Source: Candidatus Pacearchaeota archaeon (GTDB lineage Archaea > Nanobdellota > Nanobdellia > Pacearchaeales > GW2011-AR1). From it: a stretch of DNA of 41,788 nt. Below the pieces are notes generated by a model. The model searched no databases. It was not told where the DNA came from and saw only the letters and a program-made list of their open reading frames with translations. The stretch spans positions 1 through 41,788 of the forward strand of contig JAGVXG010000014.1 in NCBI GenBank assembly GCA_018303885.1, given 5' to 3'. Positions 5,062 to 31,600 of the stretch are shown here, one piece after another; positions within the stretch are counted from its first letter, which is position 1; every line of letters begins with the position of its first letter. A program made the translations under genes and the position numbers.

Positions 5062-6228
5062 ATGACTAATTATAACAAATCTTGGTGTGCACAAGGAAGC
5101 GAGAGTAATGGCATAAGATTAGCAATTGTTGGAATTGGAAATTGTGCAAGCAGCTTGGTACAGGGTATAACTTGTTATGGCAATATGAATGATGCGGGTG
5201 GCGTTCCTGGCATAATCCACCCACTTGTAGGATCCTATTCAATAGGTTCTATTAAACCAATAGTAGGATTTGACATTGACGAGAGAAAAGTCGGAAAAGA
5301 TATATCTGAGGCTATATTCAAAAAACCAAATGTGACTACAAAGTTTTCTGATGTACCTAATTTGGATGCGAGAGTCTTTATGGGTCCAATACTTGATGGG
5401 CTTCCAAAACATATGGCTCTTATTGATCCCGAGATGAGTTTTGTTGCTTCAAAAGAAAGGCCTGTCGATGTAGCAAAGGTCTTAAGAGATTATTCTATTG
5501 ATGTGGTTGTAAATTATCTACCAGTCGGATCTAAGAAAGCCACAGAATTCTATGCAAACGCTGCAATAGATGCACGTTGCGCGTTTGTTAATTGCATACC
5601 TATTTTCATAGCATCAGATGAAAAATGGATTCAGACGTTTGAAGAGGCAGGGCTTCCAGTACTAGGAGATGATGTAAAATCTCAACTTGGTGCTACTTGG
5701 ACTCATAGGGTTCTTATTCAAGCATTTCTAGACAGAGGGGTAAGAATTTTAGATACAAAACAGGAGAATTATGCTGGGAATACAGACTTTTTGAATATGA
5801 TGGATCCAGAAAGAATAAAAACAAAATTAGCCAGCAAAAAATCTTCTATAGAACATTTAATTGAAGATCATAAAAATGGTGGATATGAAATTCCTCCTGT
5901 GTATGCAGGTCCCGCGCAAGGAGAGAATAATCACGGATATGTCCCAGGAAGAAATGACAGAAAGATGGCAAGAATAACTATTAATGGTGTCAGTTTTGGT
6001 AACCAACCCATAAATATTAAAGCAGAACTAGAAGTAGAAGATTCACCAAATTCTGCTGGAATAGTGGTAGATGCGATTAGATGCGCAAAACTATCTTTGA
6101 ATCGGGGTGTAAAGGGGGCTGTTCCATCAGCTTCATCATTTTTCTTCAAACATCCTTACGAGAAAATTCCTGATTCAGAAGCAATAATCCGTCTTGAGTC
6201 TTTTATTAGAGGAGATATAAGGAGATAA
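5062..6228 (+). CDS. Inositol-3-phosphate (myo-inositol-1-phosphate) synthase
   Basis: LAIVGIGNCASSLVQG Rossmann motif, NYLPVGSKKATEFYA, GDDVKSQLGATWTHRVL motifs typical of the archaeal/actinobacterial MIPS family. Confidence 0.92.
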   Translation: MTNYNKSWCAQGSESNGIRLAIVGIGNCASSLVQGITCYGNMNDAGGVPGIIHPLVGSYSIGSIKPIVGFDIDERKVGKDISEAIFKKPNVTTKFSDVPNLDARVFMGPILDGLPKHMALIDPEMSFVASKERPVDVAKVLRDYSIDVVVNYLPVGSKKATEFYANAAIDARCAFVNCIPIFIASDEKWIQTFEEAGLPVLGDDVKSQLGATWTHRVLIQAFLDRGVRILDTKQENYAGNTDFLNMMDPERIKTKLASKKSSIEHLIEDHKNGGYEIPPVYAGPAQGENNHGYVPGRNDRKMARITINGVSFGNQPINIKAELEVEDSPNSAGIVVDAIRCAKLSLNRGVKGAVPSASSFFFKHPYEKIPDSEAIIRLESFIRGDIRR

Positions 6229-6229
6229 T

Positions 6230-7525
6230 ATGGGAAGTATTTTTAACAATTTGTATGAAGACATTAAGAATGAGTTTGAGATGCGTAAACCTACTGGTGT
6301 CCGTTCAGCTGGAATCTATGGTTCTTTTTCTAGAGGCGAAGCAAAAGAGAATTGGTCTGATATGGATGTAATGATTTTTACAGATGAAGATAAAATAAAC
6401 CCCGAATTATTTCGCATATTAGAATCAATGAATAAATCTTTGTCCAAAAAATATCCTTCTATTCCTATAACATTTCGCATACATTCTTTTGATGAATTTC
6501 CCAGATATCGTCAGCACGAGGGTTCCATATGCCCTTATTCGCTCTTTTCATATTATAAAGATATGATATTTTTCTACGGGAAAGATCTCAGAGAAGAAAT
6601 GAAAATCATATTAAAATCAAGTTCAATAAAAGAATCTATTGCAGATCTTCGTTCTAAATTATTAAGCAGCCGCCACGAATCCCGAAGTCTCATTACATCT
6701 TCAAATGAATTCCAGCCGTTTATTCAATCATTTCATGTGAACATTCATACCGAAGATATTCTAAAATATAAAATCAGTAAATTTGCTGATATGGTGCTTG
6801 AGTGTGCCTTATGTTGTAATGTTTTAAAAGGTTATTTTGTAAGAAAAAAAGCTGAAATAGCTGAAAATTTTAAAGCTCTATTTCCAAATTTCAAGTATTC
6901 TAATTTACCATTAGAGTGCAATACAATAAGGGAGAATTGGTCTAATAAAAATATAGCCCTAAGCAATGATTTTTTCCAAAATTGTGCTAATTTTTTTGAA
7001 GAGATTATAGATTTATTTGATCAAAATATTGATTATAATCAGATTAATAATGCTTTTGAAGGTTTTTTGATAAATGATAGTAAATTAAAATATCGTAAAA
7101 ATGTTTGTGCGATAGCAATAGATGAAGACAATCGTATCCTAATTGTAAAAAAAGAAGAAGATAATTCTTGGCAGTTTATTCAGGGCGGAGTTAACGAGAA
7201 TGAGTCTCTTCTGGACGCGCTAAAAAGAGAAATTAAAGAAGAAATAGGACTAAATCCTGAACAATTAAAGACTATTGCAGCAGCAAGTCATCTAAATATT
7301 TATGATTGGCCAACTGAGTTGCAAACAAAAAAAGGCTTTCGCGGACAAGAGCAGAGTTTTTTTGTTGTGGGAATAAGTGACAAAAACAGGTTTAAACTAA
7401 ATGAAGAGGAACTTATGGATTATAAATGGGTAGATATAAATGAGATTCATTTTTTTATCACACGATCAGATTTAATAGAGTCACTTAATGCTATTAAAAA
7501 ACAATTTCCAGAAATGCTAAAATGA
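6230..7525 (+). CDS. Fusion: MNT/KNTase-like nucleotidyltransferase plus C-terminal Nudix hydrolase
   Basis: GSFSRGEAKENWSDMDVMIF (GSx..G..DxD) at the N-terminus; GGVNENESLLDALKREIKEEIGL matches GX5EX7REUXEEXGU at the C-terminus. Confidence 0.88.
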   Translation: MGSIFNNLYEDIKNEFEMRKPTGVRSAGIYGSFSRGEAKENWSDMDVMIFTDEDKINPELFRILESMNKSLSKKYPSIPITFRIHSFDEFPRYRQHEGSICPYSLFSYYKDMIFFYGKDLREEMKIILKSSSIKESIADLRSKLLSSRHESRSLITSSNEFQPFIQSFHVNIHTEDILKYKISKFADMVLECALCCNVLKGYFVRKKAEIAENFKALFPNFKYSNLPLECNTIRENWSNKNIALSNDFFQNCANFFEEIIDLFDQNIDYNQINNAFEGFLINDSKLKYRKNVCAIAIDEDNRILIVKKEEDNSWQFIQGGVNENESLLDALKREIKEEIGLNPEQLKTIAAASHLNIYDWPTELQTKKGFRGQEQSFFVVGISDKNRFKLNEEELMDYKWVDINEIHFFITRSDLIESLNAIKKQFPEMLK

Positions 7526-8772
7526 CCTTTTATGTATTTGTTTACGGGGCAACAGCAACTGGCACAGGAAAAACATCTTTTGCTTCTAGTTTAGCTTATC
7601 TTTTCTCCACTTATGGCTTATCGACCAGTGTGATAAAGTTTGATGGAATATTAAATATAAGCATGGAGAATATGTTCGCTTCGAAAAAGTCTGGAGAAAT
7701 AATCTGGGCGGGCGAAGAAGTGTTTATAACACGTGACGGAAAAAAAGTAGACTCCGATGTCGGGGTGTATGAAAGATTTTTGAATAGGGATTTTAGTGGA
7801 GAAAATAATATCCTTAATGGGGCTTGTTATTTTGATTTATTACAGAAGCAGGTTAATCAAGAATTCTTAAAAGGAGAACCTTTAAGTTCTAACAAATATC
7901 TAATCCCTCTTTATCTAGAGAAGATTGAATCTGTATTTAAGAATGAAGAAGTGGGTATAATAGAGATTGGCGGCACGTTGGGCGATGACGATTCTTCTAT
8001 GTTTTTAAGAGCTTTAAGAGCTCTGAAACAAAAAAACCCCAAGAATTGCATAACAATTTGTTATACATATCTCCCTCTTAAATCTAAAGCAGACATAATA
8101 AGTAACGACGAACCATTTCTTTTGAAAATAGTAAAAAATAATTATGAAACGGCTTTTAAATCTGATTTGCCACCAGATATTCTTGCAGTAAGGTCGGATT
8201 TTTCCCTCAGCGTAGACCATATAGGACGAATAGCGAGAGACACTTTTTTGGATAAAAACAATATTGTTTTTGTTCCCACAGTTAAAGAACTTTATGACCT
8301 CCCAATACAATTAATCAAAAAAGGGCATATTCTGAAAAAAATTGATAGCCTTTTTCCAGGAAAAATAAGGAAGCCGGGACATCTTGAAGAGTATAACAAG
8401 ATTGCGTTTTCTGGAAGAAGTTCTGTATTGGTAATTGGTGAAACGGAGTCATCAGGAACTTATATTTCCCTAAATGAAGCGATAAAACATGCACTTCGGC
8501 ATCTAGGTAAAGAAGCAGACATAACCTGGCTTAAACTAAATGAAATTAAAAATAAACCACAACATTTTGATTATATCATTGTAACAGAAGGAGAAACAGC
8601 TATTGAGGAAAAATGCAGCTTAATAAAAAACCTAAGAGCGCCCTTACTTTGCATAGGAAAAGTAAATGAGGCATTTAAAGGATTACCTCACTCATATATT
8701 ATAGAAGACCATTTAGAGTATTTATCCAGACCAATGAGGCCCAAATTAATTAAATTTTTTTCTTCACAATGA
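7522..8772 (+). CDS. CTP-synthase-like amidoligase-domain protein with degenerate, shortened glutaminase region
   Basis: DSDVGVYERFLNRDFSGENNILNG, EIGGTLGDDDSSMFLRALRAL and PPDILAVRSD match CTP synthase blocks; P-loop GATATGTGKTS; C-terminus IAFSGRSS...HLEYLSRPMRP resembles a shrunken CTPS GATase. ATGA overlap with the upstream gene. Confidence 0.85.
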   Translation: MTFYVFVYGATATGTGKTSFASSLAYLFSTYGLSTSVIKFDGILNISMENMFASKKSGEIIWAGEEVFITRDGKKVDSDVGVYERFLNRDFSGENNILNGACYFDLLQKQVNQEFLKGEPLSSNKYLIPLYLEKIESVFKNEEVGIIEIGGTLGDDDSSMFLRALRALKQKNPKNCITICYTYLPLKSKADIISNDEPFLLKIVKNNYETAFKSDLPPDILAVRSDFSLSVDHIGRIARDTFLDKNNIVFVPTVKELYDLPIQLIKKGHILKKIDSLFPGKIRKPGHLEEYNKIAFSGRSSVLVIGETESSGTYISLNEAIKHALRHLGKEADITWLKLNEIKNKPQHFDYIIVTEGETAIEEKCSLIKNLRAPLLCIGKVNEAFKGLPHSYIIEDHLEYLSRPMRPKLIKFFSSQ

Positions 8773-9674
8773 AAGAGTTATTAGTTAGATCAGGCAATGA
8801 AGAAGTTTTATTAAAAACCGAATTTGAAAGTCTAATAGAAAGAATAAAAAAAAGTCAGTATATAAGACATATAATTCCGGATTTGGAGTTATGCGATATT
8901 TCTAAAGTAGGGGGAGCACCTATCAATCTTGAACTTGTCGCGGGTATGGGAGATTATGAATATTCTGGAAATACTATGCGCATATCTGCAGATTTTGATA
9001 CAGTAGAAGAAGGCCAAATAAGTTTTATGATATTTCATTGTCTTCAAAGTCTGTCTTTAAAGAATTCAAGATATTTTGTTCATGGGGCGGCCGTACAACA
9101 TGAGCAAGAACCCTATTTATTTCTGGGATCGCCTAAAGCTGGAAAGAGCACGATTTCTCTTGATTTGGCGTTGAATGATGGCATGAAAATTTATGGTGAT
9201 GACTCAATCAGTTTAAAAGTCCAGGATAGTATTCTCATTCTTAACAATGGCAATACCCATATTGGGATTAATTCTAAGCTTAAGGAAAATCCAAAAATAA
9301 AAGCCCACTACCCTGGAGAACTTCTGCCCTATATAGATAGCAGGGTTTTAAATTTGCATACGAGTGATCCTAGGGAATTAAGAAATGTTATAATTTTAGA
9401 GTCGGATTTATTTGCTACAAATGGTAACCATAGAATTCTGGCCAATCGGGGAGGATTGTATTTATATGAATATATCTCCAGAGAGAGTCGGGGAGCAGGA
9501 TACTCCATATTTTCTCATGATCTGCCTTTCCCATCTAATGATACTTTTTCTACAGCAAGAAATCTAATTAGAGCAATAAGAAATTCTGATATTAATTATT
9601 TTATAGTATCTGGGAGTTATGAGGATATGTTAAGTTCTTGCAGGAGGATTATCAAAGAAAAGGATGTTAAATAA
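8769..9674 (+). CDS. HPr kinase (HprK)-like P-loop kinase
   Basis: YFVHGAAVQHEQEPYLFLGSPKAGKSTISLDLALNDGMKIYGDDSISL: HprK-type Walker A and downstream DD. ATGA overlap with the upstream gene. Confidence 0.8.
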   Translation: MKELLVRSGNEEVLLKTEFESLIERIKKSQYIRHIIPDLELCDISKVGGAPINLELVAGMGDYEYSGNTMRISADFDTVEEGQISFMIFHCLQSLSLKNSRYFVHGAAVQHEQEPYLFLGSPKAGKSTISLDLALNDGMKIYGDDSISLKVQDSILILNNGNTHIGINSKLKENPKIKAHYPGELLPYIDSRVLNLHTSDPRELRNVIILESDLFATNGNHRILANRGGLYLYEYISRESRGAGYSIFSHDLPFPSNDTFSTARNLIRAIRNSDINYFIVSGSYEDMLSSCRRIIKEKDVK

Positions 9675-10542
9675 AAAAATTGTTATTATCTCGCAAAGTT
9701 CACTTGATTTATTTGAGGATAATCTCTATTTAGGGGGGCCTGTATCCTATGGGGGCTCTCTTTTAAACAATCTTGGTGCAGATTTTACAGTTATACCGAT
9801 GTTTAAAAAAGATTTCCCTTTTATAGATTACTATAAACGCAAAATAAAAAATTACATGCCTATTTTTTCTAAAAATACGACAACATTTGTTATGAATCTT
9901 ATAGAAAATAAAAGATATGTAACTCCGATAAAAAAAGCAGATAAATTTGATTGTTCTATGATACCTGATGAAGCATTTAATGCAGGATTTATCTATCTTT
10001 CACCAATCATAAATGATATGCCTATTAATTTTATTAAAGACATTAAATCAAAATCTAAAGCTATAATCGCTATAGATCCTTTTAATAATGATTCAGGCCA
10101 TTTCAGTAAGGAGGAGATGTCTTATTTTAAAGAATTAGTGAAATATACGGATATTATCAAATTATCCGAAAATGAATTACTTGGGCTGGCAGGAAAAAAT
10201 GAGTTCTCAAAGGCAGTAGACTTTCTAAAAAATTTTGATAATTTATTTTTAATAACTCTTGGTGCATTGGGAACATTTGTTTTTAAGAAAGAACTGATAA
10301 ACAAAATTATCCCAACTTTAAGAATGAAAAAGATAGTAGATGCTACCGGATGTGGCGATGTCTTTTTGGCTGGTTTCTTATATGGGCTATCTAATGATTA
10401 CTCCCTGGAAAAAAGCGTCCTATGGGGAAATGTGTGCGCTTCATTATCAACCTCATCAAAAGGACCTGGGTATATGCCAGCTAAAGACCAAGTTATCCAA
10501 AGTCTAGAGTCATTCAATAAACGTGATAAATTTAAAAAATAG
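9664..10542 (+). CDS. PfkB/ribokinase-family sugar, nucleoside or cyclitol kinase
   Basis: DATGCGDVFLAGFLYG PfkB signature and N-terminal GGPVSYGGSLLNNLGA; 11-nt overlap with the upstream gene. Confidence 0.88.
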   Translation: MLNKKIVIISQSSLDLFEDNLYLGGPVSYGGSLLNNLGADFTVIPMFKKDFPFIDYYKRKIKNYMPIFSKNTTTFVMNLIENKRYVTPIKKADKFDCSMIPDEAFNAGFIYLSPIINDMPINFIKDIKSKSKAIIAIDPFNNDSGHFSKEEMSYFKELVKYTDIIKLSENELLGLAGKNEFSKAVDFLKNFDNLFLITLGALGTFVFKKELINKIIPTLRMKKIVDATGCGDVFLAGFLYGLSNDYSLEKSVLWGNVCASLSTSSKGPGYMPAKDQVIQSLESFNKRDKFKK

Positions 10543-11089: not shown

Positions 11090-11564
11090 TGATCTTTCTG
11101 TCGCTATCATGAATTTTAATAATGAATCCAATGTAGGAGGCCTAATAAGGACCGCAAATGCAGCCGGATTAAAGGAAGTTGTTATAGTTGGAAGAAAGAA
11201 ATGGAACATTGGAGCTGCTACAGGGGCTCAATCTCTTACAAAAATTGTCAGAATGCCTACTACAGAAGAATTTTTATATTATTGCAAAGATGGGGGATAT
11301 AATCTTGTTTCTGTAGAAATTGGTGAAGATTCTTCAAATATTTTTTATTATAGTTATCCTGAAAACCCAATTTTGGTTATCGGAAACGAAGGCACAGGAG
11401 TTCCACTAAGAATCTTAGAAGCTTCTAAAGGGATAGTTTACATTCCTCAATTTGGAGAAGTTGAATGCCTAAATGCAGCAACATCAGGAAGCATAGCAAT
11501 ATATGATTGGATAAGAAAAAATAATGCTTTGGAAGAAAAATATAAAATTATAATTTCTTTTTAA
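11067..11564 (+). CDS. SpoU/TrmH-family (SPOUT) RNA methyltransferase
   Basis: NVGGLIRTANAAG, VIGNEGTGVP and IPQFGEVECLNAATSGSIAIYD motifs. Confidence 0.9.
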   Translation: MGKMKRTNDLSVAIMNFNNESNVGGLIRTANAAGLKEVVIVGRKKWNIGAATGAQSLTKIVRMPTTEEFLYYCKDGGYNLVSVEIGEDSSNIFYYSYPENPILVIGNEGTGVPLRILEASKGIVYIPQFGEVECLNAATSGSIAIYDWIRKNNALEEKYKIIISF

Positions 11565-11973
11565 TTTCCAATAATATTTTATTTGGGTTTGTATTAATTA
11601 TTGATTTCCAATCTATCTTTTTAGTTCCTTTCAAATATTTTTTTAGTTGTTTTCTTATTGGCGAATCAATATAAACTATTGGGCTTCTTAGCCATTCTGC
11701 AATTTGAGGATTTGATTTAATGCTTAACTCTACAAATTTCCTTATATCCCATCTCTCAACATCAAGATTATTTTTATTTAGGTTAATTTGTTTTGGAGAG
11801 TCATCTAAACCAATATAACTATCTAAATTTCCTATATGTATACTTCTAACATCATAATCTGAATCTTGTGAGGCAAATCCCCATGCCCGAGATCCGGATT
11901 CTATTGCCCATAATATTTTTACTTTATGCTTTTTTTCTATATCTTTTATTGCATTTAATACCTGTTTTTTCAT
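11548..11973 (-). CDS. Predicted nucleotidyltransferase of the RNA-repair-associated pol-beta superfamily (COG3541/YcgL-like), short form
   Basis: AIESGSRAWGFASQDSDYDVRSIHIG, DVERWDIRKFVELSIKSNPQIAEWLRSPIVY; C-terminus appears truncated relative to family members as I recall them. Confidence 0.75.
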   Translation of the reverse strand: MKKQVLNAIKDIEKKHKVKILWAIESGSRAWGFASQDSDYDVRSIHIGNLDSYIGLDDSPKQINLNKNNLDVERWDIRKFVELSIKSNPQIAEWLRSPIVYIDSPIRKQLKKYLKGTKKIDWKSIINTNPNKILLEIKKKL

Positions 11974-12016
11974 GACTTAGTTAGAAAAATATTCTTTTAA
12001 TATCTTATTATTTATT

Positions 12017-13441
12017 TTACCCCTTCACAACAACTAAAGGTCTTGTTTTAGCGACGAGGTTCCCTATTCCGAGCTCGTGAGAAACTCTGACTACTTCGTC
12101 GACGTCTTTGTATGCTTCTGGCATTTCTTCGGCAAGCCCTTTTAAACTTCCTGACTTAACTTCAATGCCCTTTTTAGCAAGATCAATTTTTACTTGTTCT
12201 CCTGTTTTTGTTTTTATTGCGGCATGTCTGCTCATTAATCTCCCTGCCCCGTGTGCAGTGCTTCCAAAAGTCAAGTCTTCTGCTTTTTTCATTCCGACTA
12301 AAACATAAGAAGAAGTCCCCATGCTTCCGGGAATAAGTATTGGCTGTCCTATCTTCCTATAAGACGCCGGAATTTCTTTTCTTCCTTTTCCAAGACTTCT
12401 AGTAGCCCCCTTTCTCATGACTAAAAATTCCTTTTCTTTTCCATTTACATTATACTTTTCAAATTTTGCAATGTTGTGACATACATCATAAACAACATCG
12501 ACTTCTGATTTTGGGAAAAGATACCTCATTTCTTCTCTTACCCAGTGTGTTATAAGCTGCCTGTTAGCAAAAGCAAAATTTGCAGCCGCAGCCATTGCTT
12601 TAAGATAGTTCTGTCCAAGCTTGCTTTTTATCGGCGCATTTATTAATTCTCTATCAGGCAAGTCTTGTATTCCATACTCGTCTTCCATTTCTTTGATATA
12701 ATCTGAAGCAACCTGATGCCCCAATCCTCGAGAACCGCAATGAATCATTATAACAACCTGTCCTTTTTTCAATCCGAAAGCCTTTGCAATTTCATTATCG
12801 AAAATCTCGTCGACAAATTGAACCTCTACAAAATGATTTCCTGCTCCAAGAGTTCCTAGCTGTCCTATTCCCCTTTTCAAAGCTCTATCAGAAACCATCG
12901 AAGGGTCAGCTCCCTCAAGACATCCTTCTTCTTCTGTATGTAAATAGTCTTCTTTTTTTCCATATCCTTTCTCGACAAGATGCTTTGCTCCGCCCCCCAT
13001 TATTTTCTTTAACTCATCTTTGCTCATATTGAATTTGCTTCCACGACCGACGCCAGAAGGGATTTTTCGGTAAAGAGCCTCGACAACCTCTTTTTGTCTT
13101 TTCAAAATATCTTCCTTCTTTAAATTAGTCCTTAAAAGCCTGACTCCACAATTAATATCGAATCCAATCCCTCCTGGACTAATTATACCCTTTTTACCGT
13201 CAGAGGCCGCCACCCCCCCTATAGAAAATCCGTAGCCAGAATGTATATCAGGCATGCCTATAGAATGTTTTTCTAATCCTGGTAACATAGCCACGTTTAC
13301 AACTTGTTGAATTGCATTGTCTTCTAAACTTTCTAGCATTTTTGGAGAAATAAAAATCCTTGCTGGAATAAGCATTTTACCGTCCTTGGGTATCTCGTAA
13401 ATGTTCTCATCAATTTTTACAAGTTTTTCTTTTATTCCCAT
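12017..13441 (-). CDS. rtcB: RNA ligase RtcB
   Basis: GGVAASDGKKGIISPGGIGFDINCGVRLLRTNL, GTLGAGNHFVEVQ, CGSRGLGHQV, GSMGTSSYVL, AHGAGRLMSR. Likely start is MGIKEKL at 13441 rather than the longest ORF start at 13459. Confidence 0.95.
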   Translation of the reverse strand: MGIKEKLVKIDENIYEIPKDGKMLIPARIFISPKMLESLEDNAIQQVVNVAMLPGLEKHSIGMPDIHSGYGFSIGGVAASDGKKGIISPGGIGFDINCGVRLLRTNLKKEDILKRQKEVVEALYRKIPSGVGRGSKFNMSKDELKKIMGGGAKHLVEKGYGKKEDYLHTEEEGCLEGADPSMVSDRALKRGIGQLGTLGAGNHFVEVQFVDEIFDNEIAKAFGLKKGQVVIMIHCGSRGLGHQVASDYIKEMEDEYGIQDLPDRELINAPIKSKLGQNYLKAMAAAANFAFANRQLITHWVREEMRYLFPKSEVDVVYDVCHNIAKFEKYNVNGKEKEFLVMRKGATRSLGKGRKEIPASYRKIGQPILIPGSMGTSSYVLVGMKKAEDLTFGSTAHGAGRLMSRHAAIKTKTGEQVKIDLAKKGIEVKSGSLKGLAEEMPEAYKDVDEVVRVSHELGIGNLVAKTRPLVVVKG

Positions 13442-13442
13442 T

Positions 13443-13853
13443 TTAAACATCAATAACAACTTGCGCTGTCCATCTTCCGGCAGATTTTTTTATAAACATA
13501 TCGTTGTAAGTTACAGCCTTAATATAATGTCTCGCCCTTCCAGCCAATTTTTCTTCTCCAAAAGCTTCTACCTTTAAATTTTTTTTATCGTCGCTTAATT
13601 TAACTTTTATATTAGAAATTAAAAATCCTTCTGTTTCAAACAGAAATAAAATTTCTTCTAGAAATCTGAACATAAGCGCTTCAAGGTCATTTCCTTTAAT
13701 TAAAAATTTCTTATTCACATCTTTTTTAATTTTCCCATCGTGTAAAACACTGGTAAAAGCCAGAGCAGAATTTTCAAATACCTCATTAAGGTTTTTTCCA
13801 AAAGCCCTGAATTTTATGTCTGCCGTATGCTCCAGAAACACGAATTTTTTCAT
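13443..13853 (-). CDS. Archease (RtcB activator)
   Basis: MKKFVFLEHTADIKFRAFGKNLNEVFENSALAF and C-terminal ARHYIKAVTYNDM; directly upstream of rtcB. Confidence 0.92.
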   Translation of the reverse strand: MKKFVFLEHTADIKFRAFGKNLNEVFENSALAFTSVLHDGKIKKDVNKKFLIKGNDLEALMFRFLEEILFLFETEGFLISNIKVKLSDDKKNLKVEAFGEEKLAGRARHYIKAVTYNDMFIKKSAGRWTAQVVIDV

Positions 13854-28676: not shown

Positions 28677-31600
28677 TTATTTACTGACTTTTACAAACTT
28701 GACTATTGCAACAGATATCACAACTAGTATCAAAAGGAACAGGTTAAGAGCGAGGTAAATCGATGCAGGGCTTTGACTTTCTTGTTGCGATGTTTCTGTT
28801 GTTCCTTCTTTTTGATAAATAACAGCGCCGCCTTCTGTTGTCCCTTCTTGTCTGAGAACGTACACTGTCGCTGTTCTTGAGTCTTCTGTTTCATCTGCGA
28901 CAATTCTAATTTCTAAATCATAATCTCCTTCTCTTGCATTAGAAGGCACCCGAATACTCAAGATTTTGGTTTCTTCGTCGCTATCCCCGTATCTTTCTAA
29001 TTCAAACTCTTCTGATTTCTTTAGTATGCCAAGCTCGGAGTTTTTAATTTCAACATAAACATCTTCGTCTTCGCTTCCTTTATTTTGTACCTCTACTGTC
29101 AAATCAATGGCGTCTCCAGGGAAAAGCGGTTCTTGGTTCATTATTACATCTTTGATAACTATTTCATGATCTTTTCTTTTAATATCTACGTAGATAAACT
29201 GTTCATTACAAAAAACACCTTCACCATCCCCGTTTCCTTCTGCCGAAACAAAAATTGCAAAGTCACTGTTTTCAGTATCTTCTGGGATTGTTAAATCGAA
29301 ATTCACGGTTTTATCTTTTCCGCTATTAATGTTCACACTGTCTTTTTCTTTTTCTACGGCGTCTTCTTCGTCAATGTCATACAAGTAAACATTTACATCT
29401 ACATCTACATCTAAATCCTCTGTATGTTTGTTTTTAATCTCAATACTCACGCCGATTTTTTCTCCAATTTCAAATTCATCTCCATCATCGGGATCTTTTA
29501 CCGAGATTTCTAAATTAGGATTCTTAACTTCACATCTGTCTACGTCGCTGAATTCAGGAGGAATTCTTTTGTCTTTTACAGAGATTTTAACAACTTCCTG
29601 GCTTGATAAACCAGTTGAATCCCTCACAGCGAATGTAACTTCATAATCTCCTGCCTGCTCATATGTTGGCACCCATGAAAATACAGCTGCTCCACCAAGG
29701 TTGTCGACGAAACCAACGCCTTCTGGAGCGTTTTGAATGCTAAAAGTTACATTGTTTAGATCCTGGTCTGTTGCCGAAACTGTAAATTCTAAAGATTCAT
29801 TTTCATTCACGGATTTTTTCCCTATTGGCGCTAAAACAGGAGCGTCAGGGGCACTTATATTCAATGTCCTGTTGTCAGGAGCAAAGGCATAGTTTCTGCC
29901 GTCGTAACATCTTACACCCCAAGTATATTTTCCATCAGCAGTGCCATTCACTAGAATACTTTCAACAGTGTTATTCTGAATACTTTTATCTGTTGTCTTT
30001 AAGTTTCCGTTGAGATAAGCATCACATGTGAGTACGCTTGCTAAGTTATCAGTTGCAGTGAATTCAAAAGTTATGTCTCTTGTTTCTGTGAATAATGCAT
30101 TGTCTAGAGGACTTGACAGTTGAACAACAGGAGCAACCATGTCTGTGTTATTTGGCAATGCTTTTGTAGGATATTTGAATATTTTAAAGTCTGCAGCATC
30201 ATTACCTGTATCTAAACCATCAGGACTTCTGCCTGCAGATTCTCCGAGTTGTGGAGTTGCCGCATTATCAAGAAGATTTCCGTCGTCCCAAACACCATAA
30301 GCTACGCTGTCAACAATTTTGTCAGAGCAATACAGTGTTAAAATATCTGCTAAATTGTTTAGCTTGTTATTTATTTCAACAATCACAAATTCGTTTTTTC
30401 CAAGTGTCCCGTTTAATGTGAGGACATTGCCTGCTCCATCTTTTACAACGCAATTGCTGAGATTAACAACTTGATTAAAGTCATTGTAAAATTCTATCCA
30501 TTCATTTCCTGTTGTTGGATTTGGAACAAATTCATTTATGTAGAACTTTTGCAGGATTTGTATGTTAAATTCCTGTGAATCGCTTCCTCCATTTCCGTCA
30601 GAAACTGTTGCAGTTACTTTCTTAGTTCCTACATCTTGCTGGTTTGTCTGCCACTTTCCTTCATTGTCAAGAAGCAAGTTAAAAGTGAAACTTAAAGTGT
30701 CTCCGTCGGCATCTGTTGCAGTTGGATTTATGTCAACAAGCCCGCCAGCCAAAAGCAACTCATCATTAATTAGGTTGAGCACAGGAGCATCATTCACAGG
30801 AGAAACTGTCAAGTTGATTTCGTTGCTTAAAACATTAAATTCTCCGTCGCTTGCATTTATTTTTATTGTTTCTTTGCCATTCCAGTCTTTCGCAGGAATC
30901 AGCGTTGCCGTGTCGTCAGAAAAATTCACGCTAATCTGCGAGTTCCCTACAGCAGAGTAATTTAATTTGCTGTCAACATCTGTGAAATACTTGCTTAAAT
31001 TCAACACAAGAGATGTATCTTCATTCCAGATTTGATCCGGGATTGAATTCGTTAAAACAGGAGCATCATTCACAGGAGAAACTGTTAAAGTTACATTGTT
31101 TGATTCGGTTTTATCGTCGCCGTCATATGCAAAGAATATTATCCAGTCAAGGCCGCTCCAGTCGCGCTTTACTATGAAATTAACAACACCATTGAGAATT
31201 GACTCAACAGTTATATTCTGATCTGGGGAAGTCTTGGAAACCCCGAATGTTATGTTGTCTTGCGGATCTGGCTCGTAGAAGTAATCAGAAAGGTTCAATG
31301 ACAAGTTTGTGTCTTCATTCCAGGTTTGGTTTTGAATTGTTGTATTTAGTGCTGGGGGTTGATTCTTATCACTAATACTTACCTTAAAGTTTTTTGTCGC
31401 GTTAAGATTTCCGTCGCTGGCTATAGCCATGAAAGTATGATTTCCTGCATCATAGAATCCTGTCTGCCACTGGAAATTATTGCTGCTTGTATTTGATTGT
31501 ATGAATCTTGAATCATTTACATAATAAACAAGGGAATCGCCTTCAGGATCTGTTGCACTTACAGATAAAATAACAGCCTGTGATTCTCTGATGATGAAGT

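Follow-up and report, generated by a model that had tools for sequence, protein, structure and literature searches.

The protein encoded at positions 7522–8772 (plus strand; 416 residues) of the window, one entire contig of 41,788 bases from a 720-kb, 85%-complete archaeal draft genome, is, by its sequence, a genuine and strongly remodelled member of the CTP synthase family that has no working glutaminase. We propose that it acts as a diverged, glutamine-independent, ATP-using ligase or kinase that serves its own operon, and we put the probability of this reading at roughly 0.55. Counted in its favor are the retention of all six ATP/Mg residues, the preservation of Asp42 and Asp147, the loss of the glutaminase, the fold match and the overlaps within the operon. 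Counted against it are the lack of an ortholog, modest P values, a very long branch in the tree and the canonical guide alignment used for the structural model.

Family membership and predicted structure

The open reading frame and its coordinates were confirmed, as was the presence of an N-terminal CTP synthase domain (PF06418, CTP_synth_N; E = 4.8e-39, 134.8 bits versus a Pfam cut-off of 26.1). The synthase-domain motifs quoted in the original prediction (DSDVGVYERF, EIGGTLGDDDSS and PPDILAVRSD) are all present. By sequence, the closest solved structures are CTP synthases (phmmer, E = 3.6e-28). The protein falls far short of the equivalog thresholds of two NCBI CTP synthase models, scoring 143 bits for TIGR00337 (cut-off 463) and 150 bits for NF003792 (cut-off 308). 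Its match to PF01656 (CbiA; E = 1e-4, 22.6 bits) falls below the Pfam cut-off of 25.4.

The structure was predicted with AlphaFold under the guidance of 34 canonical sequences, giving a model with a mean pLDDT of 78 and a pTM of 0.77. When this model was searched with Foldseek, CTP synthases were the first PDB matches (E = 7.5e-29), the top matches were all CTP synthases, and the resemblance extended along the length of the predicted fold, a result to be read in light of the guide alignment, which consisted of canonical CTP synthases and thus biases the model towards their fold.

Loss of the glutaminase and changes in the ammonia tunnel

The C-terminal part of the protein (residues ~271–416; 8332–8769, plus strand) is a collapsed glutaminase remnant. 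In phmmer and MAFFT alignments, residues from ~271 onward match the start and the extreme end of the glutaminase domain, and E. coli positions ~383–505 are missing; some 85–120 glutaminase residues are gone, leaving an HLE...SRP remnant. Class I glutaminases carry a Cys-His-Glu triad in GxCxG and HPE, and this protein does not have it: PLLCIGKV stands where GxCxG is expected, and HPE has become HLE. The short C-terminal domain without GxCxG had been predicted originally, together with the echo of HPEF.SRP..P in HLEYLSRPMRP, which is indeed found at the C-terminal end.

The tunnel gate has changed as well. Pro54 and His57 are replaced (by Ala53 and Lys56, respectively), and the tunnel/gate loop contains an insertion at residues 53–66 (7678–7719, plus strand) that is modelled with low confidence (pLDDT < 50 at 53–57 and 59–64). 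The missing nucleophile motif, the replaced gate residues and the insertion together make glutamine-driven ammonia delivery by this protein very unlikely, and the earlier claim that it has no glutamine-dependent ammonia supply is well supported at the level of sequence.

Retention of the ATP/Mg site

For residue-level comparison, the protein was aligned with 35 canonical CTP synthases, which gave 54 near-invariant synthase-domain columns, 30 of them kept. The KER/IPH segments were included in this comparison and are presumably part of the interface and the UTP pocket. Functions were assigned to the ATP, UTP and tunnel residues according to the substrate-bound fly CTP synthase (PMC8325340). All six ATP/Mg positions (Lys18, Lys40, Asp72, Glu140, Gly143 and Arg211, E. 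coli numbering) are retained (P = 0.023), and among the 12 near-invariant positions of the UTP-phosphate, tunnel and KER/IPH groups only 3 are unchanged (P = 0.018); since these P values are modest (~0.02 each) and the residue groups were picked from the literature after looking, we treat the statistics as supportive only. The Walker A motif, GG..S..GKG in canonical CTP synthases, reads GATATGTGKTS (residues 9–19; 7546–7578, plus strand). Lys18 is kept here as Lys17, Ser14 has become Thr13, and Gly19 has become Thr18.

Remodelling of the UTP site

The original prediction had held that the UTP-binding motif KTKPTQ appears as KSKADI. That assignment is wrong in its particulars: phmmer, MAFFT and hhalign all place KSKADI (residues 187–192; 8080–8097, plus strand), an extended loop preceding a helix, opposite the preceding loop of the canonical enzyme (MAASGE in E. 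coli), and these three aligners rule it out as the UTP motif. The motif is altered all the same, in a different way from the one claimed. Its positional counterpart is LLKIVK (residues 200–205; 8119–8136, plus strand). In phmmer, the helix that begins in KTKPTQ matches LLKIVKNNYETAF without gaps, so that Lys187 and Thr188 both become Leu, Lys189 is kept (as Lys202) and Gln192 is replaced by Lys205; MAFFT agrees on the last two. Gapped alignments put Ser in place of Lys187 and Asn in place of Thr188, and Lys187 is therefore lost in either alignment. Lysines of the longer loop could replace it spatially.

Changes extend to most of the UTP triphosphate contacts: in addition to the loss of Lys187 and Thr188, we observed S14T, H57K, Q114S, Q192K and K223R, with Lys189 and Thr144 kept. 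The UTP-site features KTKPTQ, Lys223 and His57 thus correspond to LLKIVK, Arg236 and Lys56, and the near-invariant residues Glu103, Arg104 and Pro117 are also replaced. In contrast, the uracil contact Asp42 (Asp41 here) and the ribose contact Asp147 (Asp155) are kept, and Glu149 is conservatively replaced by Asp157; this residue usage is compatible with a uridine or pyrimidine-nucleotide acceptor. The earlier proposal of a changed acceptor substrate thus receives only partial support.

Occurrence in the genome and its relatives

No second CTP-synthase-like gene (PF06418 or canonical pyrG) was found in the 85%-complete draft. The term paralog, used in the original prediction, should accordingly be applied with caution. 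The missing pyrG counts in part against the prediction, with small weight because the draft is incomplete and most relatives likewise have no pyrG: a canonical CTP synthase was detected in 17 of 55, two of them from the same genus and with full-length frames of 556 and 559 amino acids. Since most relatives show no CTP synthase, the enzyme is seemingly not required in this group.

These observations bear on the simplest alternative, that the protein is the archaeon's plain CTP synthase, ammonia-dependent and fast-evolving, with CTP perhaps made for the adjoining nucleotidyltransferase. It is the sole PF06418 gene in the draft, it keeps the uracil and ribose contacts, and canonical CTP synthases can use free ammonia too (PMC8325340, PMC11211670). 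We nevertheless consider this alternative unlikely, given the loss of Lys187 and Thr188, the replacement of Glu103, Arg104 and Pro117, the full length of the two same-genus enzymes and the apparent dispensability of CTP synthase among the relatives.

Orthologs of the protein were found neither in 200 genomes of the order nor in 371 of the phylum. Searches of phages, plasmids and IMG/VR also returned none, and matches inspected as loci were canonical full-length enzymes; a narrow GTDB pattern scan was negative as well, which is a weak negative. A literature search on CTP synthase paralogs or inositol clusters found nothing relevant. In the phylogenetic tree, the branch leading to the protein spans ~9 changes per site and its placement is without support, and a branch of this extreme length is also compatible with relaxed constraint. 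Together with the collapsed glutaminase and the failure to find orthologs, it would suit a catalytically dead remnant that persists as a scaffold or is being lost. Such a remnant would not be expected to have an intact frame of 416 codons, tight overlaps with the neighboring genes and a full set of ATP/Mg residues, and we judge this explanation very improbable.

The five-gene operon

The gene lies third in a run of five on the plus strand that overlap or abut, in the order Ino1-like, nucleotidyltransferase–Nudix, the CTP-synthase-family gene, HprK-like and PfkB; its frame overlaps each flanking gene by 4 bases. The first gene (5062–6228) encodes a myo-inositol-3-phosphate-synthase-like (Ino1) protein (PF01658, E = 1.3e-24; PDB 1gr0, 332 bits) that scores 379 bits for TIGR03450, under the cut-off of 638. 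The second (6230–7525) encodes a fusion of an N-terminal minimal nucleotidyltransferase (PF01909, E = 3e-7) with a C-terminal RppH-like Nudix hydrolase (PF00293, E = 7e-19). No full-length relative of this fusion was found in 109 genomes of the order or in plasmids, where matches were confined to the Nudix part or to short nucleotidyltransferase segments.

The fourth gene (8769–9674), which overlaps both of its neighbors, encodes an HprK-like kinase with a P-loop (GSPKAGKST) and an IYGDD motif read from the sequence. It belongs to no Pfam family and has only a weak match to TIGR04352 (E = 0.0056), and its single-sequence AlphaFold model (pLDDT 32) is unusable. Relatives were found neither in 180 genomes of the order, except for a partial match in one genome of the same genus (G009), nor in plasmids, the PDB or IMG/VR. 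In G009 (L195:5679–7478), a distant HprK/PEPCK-like gene adjoins a CDP-alcohol phosphotransferase gene within a group of surface-polysaccharide genes. The fifth gene (9664–10542) encodes a PfkB-family kinase with the signature DATGCGD (PF00294, E = 2.6e-23).

The Ino1-like gene was not detected in any of the 51 other same-order genomes searched, and so the operon looks accessory. This gene also has bacterial relatives. Proteins 35–42% identical to it occur in 24 IMG/VR viral contigs and in Caulobacter and Stenotrophomonas phages, and none of the other operon genes was seen near the viral Ino1-like genes in the 24 viral loci examined. In the draft genome, 15% of which is missing, no member of the CDP-alcohol phosphotransferase or inositol monophosphatase families was found; the usual archaeal lipid fate of inositol phosphate is thus not evident.

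The original prediction had also named inositol phosphates among the substrates to assay; the adjoining Ino1-like gene is the sole basis for a link to inositol. Taken further, the idea would be a kinase or ligase acting on a non-nucleotide acceptor such as inositol phosphate. Two kinases adjoin the gene along with the Ino1-like gene, the P-loop now reads as a standard GKT/S Walker A, and the contacts to the triphosphate are altered, all of which would agree with such an acceptor. Even so, we find it doubtful: Asp42, Asp147 and Asp157 (for Glu149) still occupy the places that contact uracil and ribose, and cyclitol binding is suggested by gene neighborhood and not directly.

Elsewhere in the window, genes for archease, RtcB and an RlaP fragment adjoin on the minus strand (11548–13853), an RNA ligase/repair set in which the fragment (141 amino acids) covers the first half of the model only and represents a shortened RlaP. 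Between positions 28677 and 39258 lie genes for several very large proteins of surface type, rich in DUF4215, Ig-like and cadherin-like repeats. The contig also carries archaeal type IV pilin genes and a PilB3-type pilus ATPase, which together with the archease–RtcB–RlaP set mark the source as a small archaeon.

Proposed function

From the family membership, glutaminase loss, ATP/Mg retention and operon structure read from the sequence, we infer an activity in which ATP and Mg would phosphorylate an acceptor oxygen, as in the synthase half of CTP synthase. Free ammonia or some other small nucleophile could then attack the activated acceptor; alternatively, the phosphoryl group could stay on. 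As the acceptor, a pyrimidine nucleotide whose phosphate tail is altered seems slightly more likely than a cyclitol phosphate. The enzyme would serve the five-gene operon, whose likeliest pathway would lead from Ino1-made inositol phosphate to a nucleotide-activated or phosphorylated cyclitol; this pathway assignment is made through guilt by association in a single genome. A bolder version, which we hold to be quite improbable, is that a CTP-synthase-derived ligase no longer makes CTP and that its joining or activation of a nucleotide and a cyclitol phosphate lies at the center of an undescribed inositol–nucleotide pathway encoded by the operon.

If our preferred reading of a diverged, glutamine-independent enzyme is true, this protein would be a natural CTP synthase family member without a glutaminase and with a rebuilt acceptor site, suggesting that the scaffold is adaptable to phosphate activation of other kinds. 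Its presence would, in addition, hint at a pathway for cyclitols or nucleotides in reduced archaea. The CTP synthase family is regarded as having a single function, and proteins with a CTP_synth_N domain should not automatically be called CTP synthases.

Comparison with known systems

With PyrG (EC 6.3.4.2; PF06418 plus class I GATase), the protein shares the synthase-domain fold, the ATP/Mg residues, the acidic residues that contact uracil and ribose, the DxDxGxYERF and GGTxGD motifs, and a trace of the GATase tail. Unlike PyrG, it has no GxCxG and lacks ~120 GATase residues, its Walker A motif has GKT in place of GKG, its gate loop contains an insertion, and the UTP-triphosphate contacts, tunnel gate and KER/IPH segments are replaced. 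An ordinary GxxxxGKT/S Walker A and the weak, sub-cut-off match to PF01656 recall P-loop proteins of the dethiobiotin synthetase/CobB/MinD type; however, the sequence is far nearer to CTP synthase, and CTP synthases also head the fold search. Finally, the synthetase domain of the human enzyme on its own (PDB 2vo1 and 3ihl) illustrates that the ATP-using half alone folds alike, with target-normalised TM-scores of 0.87–0.90 (best chains) to the predicted model. Those structures come from artificially truncated forms of a canonical enzyme, whereas the archaeal protein is a natural one with a remodelled acceptor region.
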